Below, piece by piece: positions 48,949 to 53,017 of a DNA stretch of 64,000 nucleotides. The stretch is from positions 1 to 64,000 of the forward strand of contig CACNYH010000001.1 of the NCBI GenBank assembly GCA_902624495.1. The letters are read 5' to 3'. Each line of letters starts with the position of its first letter. The stretch's first letter is position 1. The notes under the pieces are model-generated. The model had not been told where the DNA came from, searched no databases, and was given only the letters and a program-made list of their open reading frames with translations. Both the position numbers and the translations under genes were made by a program. The DNA comes from an uncultured Pelagibacteraceae bacterium. GTDB lineage: Bacteria > Pseudomonadota > Alphaproteobacteria > Pelagibacterales > Pelagibacteraceae.

Positions 48949-49719
48949 TTATAAGCTTTTTAGATCGTACTTTGCCAATAAAGTTTTAAAAAATCCGGAT
49001 GATTTCTTTTTCTTAATCCAATTGCTGACGTAATCATTCCACACTTTGTCACCTTTTGGAACCATCATAGCTAAAAATGCTGGATTTTTTCCTCCATCAG
49101 GAACTATAGCTAATTGAGGATATTTAATAACTAGTTTGTTTGCTTCTGTTGAACTTGTTATATTTCCATCAGCTCTTCCCGCTAAAACTTCTTGAAAGTC
49201 TCTTGCAGGAGCTTCAACTGACTGAAGTTTTGATTTTGGAAAAAATTCTTTTGCTTTTTCTTCCTGAGATGTTCCTAACGTTGTAGCTATTGTAACACTA
49301 CTATTATTTAAAGACTCCCAAGTTGAAAATTTTTTTAAATTCTTTTTTAAAACAAGTGGGACTGTTGCATACTTGTAATATGTAGTGGTAAATCCGGCTA
49401 CTTCTGCTCTTTTTGGTGTTTTGGTAACACTTGTTGATATATCGTATCTATCAGCTGTTATTCCTGCAACAATAGTTTTCCACTCTGCAGGCACAAATTT
49501 CACTTTCACGCCTAAATCTTTAGCTAGCTCATTCATCACATCAATATCAAATCCTTTGTACTTGTTCGTTTTTGGATCTTTCATTGACATTGGATCCCAG
49601 TCTCCTGTCGTACCAACTCTTAACTCTCCACTTTTTTTGATTGCGTCTAGTTTAGATGCTGCTTGAGCACTTGTTGTTACAAGTAATACCAATAATATTG
49701 AAAAAATTTTTTTAATCAC
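48949..49719 (-). CDS. Amino acid ABC transporter periplasmic substrate-binding protein
   Basis: Signal peptide; [47 protein letters not shown]. Confidence 0.92.
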
Positions 49720-49794
49720 GTTATGTTATTAGCTAATCTCTCTCTTTTTTTCGATTTGCAATTTGACCCACTTTAACAACCTTTTGAAAAGGGG

Positions 49795-49824
49795 TTGACT
49801 GAAAGGTAGTTTATCAGCTATAAA
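49795..49824 (+). promoter_or_regulatory. umuDC promoter
   Basis: TTGACT (49795-49800), 18-nt spacer, TATAAA (49819-49824). Confidence 0.65.
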
Positions 49825-49839
49825 GAACAAAACAAGAAC
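49825..49839 (+). promoter_or_regulatory. LexA/SOS box of alphaproteobacterial type
   Basis: GAACAAAACAAGAAC = GAAC-N7-GAAC, directly 3' of the -10 and 4 nt before umuD ATG. Confidence 0.8.
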
Positions 49840-49843
49840 ATTT

Positions 49844-50239
49844 ATGAAGTTAACAATACCTTATTATTTACATAAAGTGGGAGCTGGTTTTCCTTCTCCG
49901 GCAACAGATTATATTGAGGACGATATAGATCTAAACTCTCATCTCATAACAAATGCACCAGCTACGTTCATCATTAGAGTGCAAGGTAAATCTATGACTA
50001 ATGTGGGCATATATGACGGCGATCTATTAATAGTGGATAAAAGCTTAAATCCAAAAAATTTCTCCACTGTTATAGCAAATATCAACGAAGAACTTGTAGT
50101 CAAAACTCTGGTTAAAAGTAAGGGCAACAACTACTTAACATCAGGTTCAAAAAACACATCGGATCGAATTAATTTAACAGATAATCCAGAAATAATAATT
50201 TGGGGAGTAGTAACATATGTCATACACAAACAGCAGTAG
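49844..50239 (+). CDS. umuD: DNA polymerase V subunit UmuD (S24 self-cleaving)
   Basis: [18 protein letters not shown]...[24 protein letters not shown]; Ser (GKSM) and Lys (VVKTL) dyad; Ala-Gly cleavage candidate. Confidence 0.94.
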
Positions 50240-51494
50240 AAAAAAAGTTGCATTAATTGACTGTAATTCATTTTATGTTTCTTGCGAAAGATTATTTAAT
50301 CCTAAAATACAAAATGTACCAGTTGTGGTGCTATCTAATAATGATGGATGTGTAATATCCAGATCTACTGAAGCAAAAAAACTTGGAATAAGAATGGGTG
50401 AACCATATTTTAAAGTTAAAGATTTAGTTAAAAAAAACAACGTTCAGATATTTTCTTCGAACTATGCATTATATGGAGATCTTTCTAGACGAGTGATGAA
50501 AGTTTTAAAAGGTTTTACTGATAAAATTGAAATCTATTCTATAGACGAAGCATTTTTAGATTTATCGCATATCAAAGATGAACAAGTCGAAGAATATGGA
50601 AAACAAATAAGAGAAAGAGTTTTAAAATGGACGGGAATACCAACAAGTGTAGGAATTTCAAATACAAAAACTTTAAGTAAAGTTGCAAATCATATTGCCA
50701 AAAAAAATAAAGCAGGAGTGGTATTTCTAAAAGAAAATATAGATAATATACTAAAAGATTTTGATATTGCAGATGTATGGGGAGTTGGAAGACAGTTATC
50801 AAAACTATATATTAAAAATGGAATAGACAATGCTTATAAACTAAAAAATATTTCAAACACATGGGTTAAGAAAAGTACTAATGTTTTAGGTGCGAAAACA
50901 GTAATGGAGTTAAGAGGGATTCCTTGTATAGATTTAGAAACTGAGGAAACAAGAAGAAAAAGCTGTTGTGTATCAAGATCGTTTGGAAAAAAAGTTGAGA
51001 GTTTAGATAAATTAAAAGAGTCTATAACTACTCATTGTTTAAATGCAGCAGAAAAAATAAGAACAGATAAACAAACTACGCGAGCTGTCACTATATTTAT
51101 AAGAACAAGTCCATTTGATAAAAATAGAAAATACTATTCAAATTCTATTACTATTGAATTGCCGGTGGCAACTAATAACAGTATTGAACTTGTAAAAACT
51201 GCAATTAGCGGACTGGGAAAGATTTATAAATATGGTTATTTCTATCAAAAAGCTGGAATTATTTTATCTAAGCTTAGAGACGCTTCTGAAAAAGAGCTAA
51301 ATTTATTAGCACCAATTTTAGAGAATAAATCTCAACCATTAATGAGAGCAATCGATTTTACCAATGCAAAATATGGACGAAATGCAATCAGTATAGCTCA
51401 AGCTGGTATAAGTAACGATTGGAAAATGAGAAGAGAACACTCATCTAGAATAGATACAGCTTCATTTGACTTCCTACCTAAAATAAATATATAA
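50217..51494 (+). CDS. umuC: DNA polymerase V subunit UmuC (Y-family)
   Basis: [51 protein letters not shown]. Confidence 0.97.
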
Positions 51495-51496
51495 TT

Positions 51497-51570
51497 TGTA
51501 TAAGGGGTGTCATAAAGACTGAGATCATACCCAAAGAACCTGACCGGTAATTCAGTAAGGGATAAATGAA
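51497..51570 (+). ncRNA. TPP (THI element) riboswitch
   Basis: GGGGTGtcataaagaCTGAGAtcatACCCaaagaACCTGAccggtaattcagTAAGGGA matches conserved THI-box blocks in order, upstream of a symporter. Confidence 0.9.
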
Positions 51571-53017
51571 AGATATATACCTATCAACACAAACAACGCT
51601 AATTATTACTCTAGTAGTAGGCGCTTTTTTTATCGCCTTAGGTTATATAAATTTAAAAAAAATTTCAGATAATAAAAGCCTAATAATTGGTGACAGAAAA
51701 GAGAGTATTTTTTCATTAACAACGAGTTTATCAGCATCTGCCTTGGGAGCTTGGATATTATTCGGACCAGCTTCAGCAGCAACTTGGGGGGGAATAGGGG
51801 CAGTAATTGGATATGCGTTAGGTACAGCTGCACCTATGCTATTTTTACTAAATTTTGGACCGAAAATAAGGAGAGAATTTCCTAACGGAATGTCTTTAAC
51901 TGAGTTTATTAAAAGAAGATTTGGGACTGGAATTTTAAAGATAATGTTAATCTTAATTCTATTTTATTTGACAATTTTTTTGATAGCAGAAGTCACAGCA
52001 ATAGCTTTTTTAATAAATTTAATCTCAAAAACACCTTTATGGATAACATCCGGACTAACTTTAATCATATGTCTTTTATATATATTAAGAGGTGGATTTA
52101 AACTTTCGATTATTACAGATAAATATCAATTTATAATAATTTTAAGCATAATATTATTTTCTATATTTTTAATTTTAGGAAATTTAGAAATAAATAGTTA
52201 TGAACTGATTAAAAAAAATTCTGCAAAACTTATAAGTAAAAATTATATTCCAAATTACACTGCTGGATTGACATTTTTTATAGCTGTAGCAGCAACAAAC
52301 TTATTTCACCAGGGTAATTGGCAACGTGTCTTTGCTGCAAAAAATAACTTTATTTTAAAAAAAAGTTTAATCTACTCATCAATTATATCATTTTTGATTG
52401 TTTTTTGGATGGGCTACACAGGTCTAATATCTTTTTCACTTGATCCTAAAATAGAACCTGATTTAGCTTTTTTTAAAATAATGTTATCTAATGATAATGT
52501 TTTAATAATTGTTTCTATTTTAATTTTAGCCCTAGCTTTAACATTAAGCACAATTGATACATTAATAAACGCTATTTCAAGCCTAATAATTATTGATGGA
52601 AAAAAACTAAATAAATTTTTAAGTGGCAGAGAAATAAAAGATAAATCCAATAAATTAATTTTATTATTATGTTTGATTGTTTTTATTTTTGCTTCTAAAG
52701 GATATAGCATCTTATATTTATTTTTATTTGCAGATCTTCTTTGTTGTTCGGCAGTTGTAACAATATTCTATGGTTTTTTTAAAAAAAAAATTAATACAAG
52801 ATTGTCTTTAGTATCAATTATTCTTGGTTTAGGCACAGGTTTATTATTTTTCCCAAGTCAAAATTTTCAATCAAGTCTTTTAGTAGGTAATATTATGTCT
52901 ATAGAAAATTTTAGTCCAATAGTCTTATCAAACTTACTCTTTATTTCATTTTTTGTAGCTATAATTGTACCACTTGTAATAATAACAACTCACTCTTTAC
53001 GTAATTCGTTAAGATAA
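51566..53017 (+). CDS. thiV: Sodium:solute symporter, ThiV-like (putative thiamin pyrimidine precursor transporter)
   Basis: SSS-family TM protein (SASALGAWILFGPASAATWGGIGAVIGYALG) immediately after a TPP riboswitch. Confidence 0.8.
   Translation: MKDIYLSTQTTLIITLVVGAFFIALGYINLKKISDNKSLIIGDRKESIFSLTTSLSASALGAWILFGPASAATWGGIGAVIGYALGTAAPMLFLLNFGPKIRREFPNGMSLTEFIKRRFGTGILKIMLILILFYLTIFLIAEVTAIAFLINLISKTPLWITSGLTLIICLLYILRGGFKLSIITDKYQFIIILSIILFSIFLILGNLEINSYELIKKNSAKLISKNYIPNYTAGLTFFIAVAATNLFHQGNWQRVFAAKNNFILKKSLIYSSIISFLIVFWMGYTGLISFSLDPKIEPDLAFFKIMLSNDNVLIIVSILILALALTLSTIDTLINAISSLIIIDGKKLNKFLSGREIKDKSNKLILLLCLIVFIFASKGYSILYLFLFADLLCCSAVVTIFYGFFKKKINTRLSLVSIILGLGTGLLFFPSQNFQSSLLVGNIMSIENFSPIVLSNLLFISFFVAIIVPLVIITTHSLRNSLR

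Follow-up and report, generated by a model that had tools for sequence, protein, structure and literature searches.

The LexA operator of Escherichia coli is a palindrome, CTGT-N8-ACAG. The LexA operator of alphaproteobacteria such as Caulobacter is a direct repeat, GTTC-N7-GTTC, which is equivalent to GAAC-N7-GAAC (PMC12700426, PMC3323433). Induction of nrdAB by DNA damage has been described in Vibrio cholerae and E. coli, and EMSA showed no binding of V. cholerae LexA to the nrdA promoter (PMC5963079). In the literature searched, no operator or LexA regulon was found described for Pelagibacter. Comparison across the order indicates that a GAAC-N7-GAAC box in the umuDC promoter of the SAR11 genome studied here is very probably the operator through which LexA represses umuDC (pol V), as part of a very small SOS regulon. 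As predicted from its sequence, this box is a LexA operator of the ordinary type already known from alphaproteobacteria, and the putative operator of nrdAB is the less expected part of the regulon. The SAR11 system resembles that of Caulobacter in the direct repeat and its spacing, in the predicted recA and lexA targets and in the autoregulation that these imply; it differs in the AT-rich centre of the box, in having umuDC in place of an imuAB-dnaE2 cassette, in a GTAC half-site at recA and in comprising apparently only about four operons. With E. coli it has in common a umuDC operon predicted to be under LexA control, an operator lying over the promoter and a homologous UmuD with Ser, Lys and cleavage site, whereas the operator is a GAAC direct repeat and not the CTGT-N8-ACAG palindrome, the arm of UmuD is shorter, and the cleavage position is Ala-Gly (in the genome's own family) rather than Cys-Gly.

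The window (the whole stretch of DNA analysed, 64 kb) is part of the source genome (G000; 815 kb, 73% complete). The features of the umuDC locus are as follows:

49795-49800, + strand: -35 hexamer TTGACT of the umuDC promoter (direct reading; conserved in relatives)
49801-49818, + strand: promoter spacer of 18 nt (direct reading)
49819-49824, + strand: -10 hexamer TATAAA (direct reading; conserved in relatives)
49825-49839, + strand: putative LexA operator (SOS box) GAACAAAACAAGAAC, GAAC-AAAACAA-GAAC, over the inferred transcription start (from conservation)
49840-49843, + strand: ATTT between the box and the umuD ATG, the latter at 49844 (direct reading)
49844-50239, + strand: umuD, self-cleaving pol V subunit of 131 amino acids (NF007621, 138 bits, cut-off 110; Pfam Peptidase_S24)
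50217-51494, + strand: umuC, Y-family polymerase of 425 amino acids, overlapping umuD (PF00817, PF11799 and PF13438; IMS/IMS_C/DUF4113)

On re-reading, the original prediction proved exact in its coordinates: TTGACT-18-TATAAA is followed by GAAC-N7-GAAC at 49825-49839, the first base of the box coming directly after TATAAA and its last base lying 4 nt before the umuD ATG. The two GAAC half-sites form a direct repeat with the 7-nt spacer of a LexA operator, and their place is an SOS gene promoter, where they overlap the contacts of RNA polymerase around the likely transcription start. The upstream neighbour of umuD, a gene for a solute-binding protein, is encoded on the opposite strand, and the umuDC operon therefore needs a promoter of its own. 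This promoter was not listed by the promoter scanner, because the scanner demands a T at the last position of the -10 hexamer.

UmuD was found to align with the structures of E. coli UmuD/UmuD', with the catalytic Ser and Lys kept and Ala-Gly at the cleavage position; it possesses the S24 domain and no DNA-binding domain, and umuC adjoins its gene. Of the models compared with UmuC, the NCBIfam pol V UmuC model PRK03609 is the best by far, with 397 bits against a higher cut-off of 431. Despite this sub-cut-off score, the ORF at 50217-51494 was named umuC from the order of its domains and its position after umuD. The named best matches of UmuC belong to Pelagibacteraceae single-cell genomes and to Candidatus Pelagibacter ubique HIMB058, confirming that the DNA is that of SAR11. 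A search of positions 49600-51800 against Rfam gave no match at the gathering threshold. A TPP riboswitch-like element (RF00059, window positions 51493-51579, + strand) sits between umuC and the gene of an SSF-family symporter (51566-53017); its score of 44.3 bits (E 6.6e-8) falls short of the gathering score, which is 54.3.

Conservation of the GAAC repeats in close relatives was a check set beforehand, and the repeats passed through it unchanged. The umuD promoters were read at 88 loci, made up of that of the window, 79 genome-contig loci and eight divergent members of the genus; one additional locus was left out, its upstream sequence being too short. Both half-sites are intact in all 88, and 80 of these promoters share the identical 16 bases GAACAAAACAAGAACA. 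Over the 68 distinct in-register upstream sequences, identity amounts to 100% in the half-sites and 98% in the seven inner bases, compared with means of 98% for the -35 and 97% for the -10 hexamer, 83% for the spacer and 78% for the region from -90 to -50. In a second family of Pelagibacterales (f2), whose UmuC is about 50% identical, the same 15 box bases follow a -10-like AATAAT, TTGACT is again present as the -35, and the ATG lies farther downstream than in the source genome's own genus, where the box ends 3-4 nt before it. Ten umuD promoters of the sister genus g6 also carry the box, which abuts the ATG in seven. Because the distance between box and ATG differs in f2 and g6, the position of the box is tied to the promoter and not to the start codon or ribosome-binding site. 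The g6 loci with the umuD ATG directly after the box (L342-L345, L348, L349 and L351) imply a leaderless or near-leaderless mRNA. The box was also verified upstream of umuD in further genera. The pattern GAACAWWAYAAGAACA, which takes in the umuD box as well as nrdA variants and, in genera g5 and g7, mraZ variants, was matched in 217 of 248 genomes of the order and in all nine genera (9/9), with four matches for the reversed control.

A lexA homologue, on whose presence the original prediction depended, was identified on contig C7 of the source genome (TIGR00498, 168 bits, cut-off 111), and it has a conserved box of its own. Its product combines the winged HTH DNA-binding domain PF01726 with an S24 peptidase, as is proper to the LexA family, and alignment with LexA structures shows the Ala-Gly cleavage site and the Ser/Lys dyad. 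The gene scores above the cut-off in 59 of 81 genomes, and the LexA DNA-binding domain is present in 15 of the 16 genomes that are at least 90% complete. The box of the lexA promoter, GAACTTTTATAGAAC, is located at 377-391 of C7, 22 nt upstream of the ATG; in f2 it reads GAACATTGATAGAAC or GAACATTGGTAGAAC. In the source genome's own family the lexA box is followed by a second, inverted and weaker box with a GTAC half-site. This inverted GAAC-N7-GTAC box occupies positions 397-412 of L007, downstream of the first lexA box and ahead of the probable lexA ATG (414), and a longer lexA ORF starting at 396 would run through it.

Thirteen GAACN7GAAC sites were found in the source genome, ten inside ORFs and three intergenic, the latter being those of the umuDC, lexA and nrdA promoters. 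Sites within ORFs that are common to several genomes (the ten here, others in relatives) were treated as coding coincidence. The complete genome of a member of the sister genus g6 (G093), read whole as an independent test, likewise holds 13 sites; exactly three of them lie between genes, namely those of umuD, nrdA and lexA. With five control patterns, one site in 120 was intergenic in this genome, against three in 13 for the box (Fisher P = 0.003, with crude gene calls). recA is absent from the source assembly, which is incomplete, and its box was therefore read in relatives: GAACAAAATGTGTAC, with GTAC as its second half-site, is present in 21 of 21 own-genus promoters read, in G093 and in most of the f2 promoters read. 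A few f2 recA promoters differ in the inner bases of the box and two were read only partly; most f2 promoters carry an additional perfect box upstream.

The wider scan of SOS genes proposed with the original prediction thus held for lexA and, in relatives and with a GTAC half-site, for recA, and it failed for imuAB and dnaE2, which are apparently absent. imuAB seem to be missing, as umuC is the only Y-family polymerase match per genome in the relatives. For dnaE2, no gene scored above the DnaE2 cut-off in 61 genomes, the sub-cut-off matches being taken as the main replicative DnaE, and the gene was dropped as a target. uvrA was ruled out as a LexA target, since no box was found for it in twelve genomes even with one mismatch allowed. 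Judged by the boxes found, the SOS regulon seems to consist only of recA, lexA, umuDC and nrdAB.

The nrdA gene of the source genome encodes the large subunit of a class I ribonucleotide reductase (PRK09102, 773 bits over the first 495 residues), and its promoter carries the following feature:

L011 1501-1515, the same as 4411-4425 of contig C17 of the source genome: putative LexA box GTTCTTATAATGTTC around the -10 of nrdA, in the interval that separates this gene from a divergently oriented phosphomannomutase-like gene

The box encloses TATAAT, which lies 17 nt after TTGCAA. Relatives have boxes such as GTTCCTATAATGTTC and GTTCTAATAATGTTC, in which the inner bases vary and the half-sites are kept; an exact copy of the box was found in 29 of 81 relatives, every one of them from the source genome's own genus. 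In contrast to V. cholerae, nrdA of Pelagibacteraceae has a conserved and apparently direct LexA box enclosing its -10. NrdR-box-like palindromes, ACACAACATGTAGTTGT, are situated downstream of it. No nrd box was found in f2 genomes, where class I nrd matches are weak and fall inside a 1,200-residue frame compatible with a class II reductase. A box of the LexA type was observed 88-145 nt upstream of mraZ (MraZ by PF02381), the head of the cell-division cluster, in genera g5 and g7, and a link between SOS and cell division is possible in these two genera only:

L353, about 842-857: LexA-type box upstream of mraZ
L355, about 772-787: LexA-type box upstream of mraZ
L358 and L360: further mraZ boxes of this type

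Taken by itself, the GAACN7GAAC motif is at chance level and statistically unremarkable. The window contains one match against 0.91 expected from shuffling, and the 13 matches of the source genome compare with 13.2 expected from base composition and 22 for the reversed control pattern. Motif counting was consequently dropped as sole evidence for an operator, and the "perfect SOS box" of the original prediction stands as an exact match at the place given, with the match alone being what chance would supply in this genome. These figures are what a functionless chance motif would call for, yet only about 0.0016 matches are expected in a given 100-bp promoter, the half-sites are invariant in 88 of 88 promoters and recur in the second family, and intergenic matches occur at SOS operons only. 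It is this conservation that raises the umuDC box above chance, and the chance explanation, already refuted by it, can be given practically no weight.

A constraint on the mRNA could also preserve such bases, if the GAAC repeats were kept only because the short umuD leader and its ribosome-binding site consist of them. The box does lie where such a constraint would be expected, ending just before the ATG in its own genus and touching it in several g6 members, but f2 keeps the same 15 bases with the ATG farther away, and half-sites of the same sequence also stand before lexA and nrdA, where the distances are quite different and the middle is not identical; this reading is very improbable, if the least so of the alternatives. 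Binding by a regulator other than LexA is given slightly less credence still. It draws on the fact that LexA as the binder is a prediction from sequence; against it, the same box precedes lexA, as expected for an autoregulated repressor, and LexA with GTTC-N7-GTTC is a published alphaproteobacterial pairing (PMC3323433, PMC12700426).

Published expression data are consistent with the box as a LexA operator. In strain HTCC1062 infected with phage HTVC027P, RNA-seq showed recA, lexA, umuD and umuC to be raised, together with nrdA (3.1-8.9 fold) and nrdB, and the authors of that study saw an SOS response; uvrABC also rose, though uvrA has no box (PMC12753301). During late iron stress lexA, recA and mucA group together (PMC2864753). 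All box-bearing operons are thus among the risers, in phage and iron-stress experiments in which many genes changed.

With LexA as the repressor, a protein bound to GAACAAAACAAGAAC right after the -10 would lie across the inferred start site and shut the promoter. RecA filaments formed on damaged DNA would lead LexA to cleave itself, allowing transcription of umuDC, and cleavage of UmuD at Ala-Gly would render pol V active for copying past lesions. LexA would control lexA itself, recA and nrdAB in the same way. A minimal SOS regulon of these four operons, in which LexA bound over the -10 of nrdA directly represses the sole class I ribonucleotide reductase found, appears reasonably likely, with less assurance than the umuDC operator itself. 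Damage or phage infection would then raise both pol V and the supply of dNTPs at once, and phages without nrd genes of their own may profit.

SAR11 are among the most abundant bacteria of the ocean and have shed most of their regulators. In these tiny genomes a predicted inducible mutagenic polymerase has been kept, with the bases of its operator nearly frozen across the order. The putative operator of nrdAB would provide a simple reason for the rise of nrdAB in infected cells, and the predicted regulon is small enough for complete testing. A retained SOS switch would bear on how these bacteria handle UV damage, mutation rate and phage infection in surface water.
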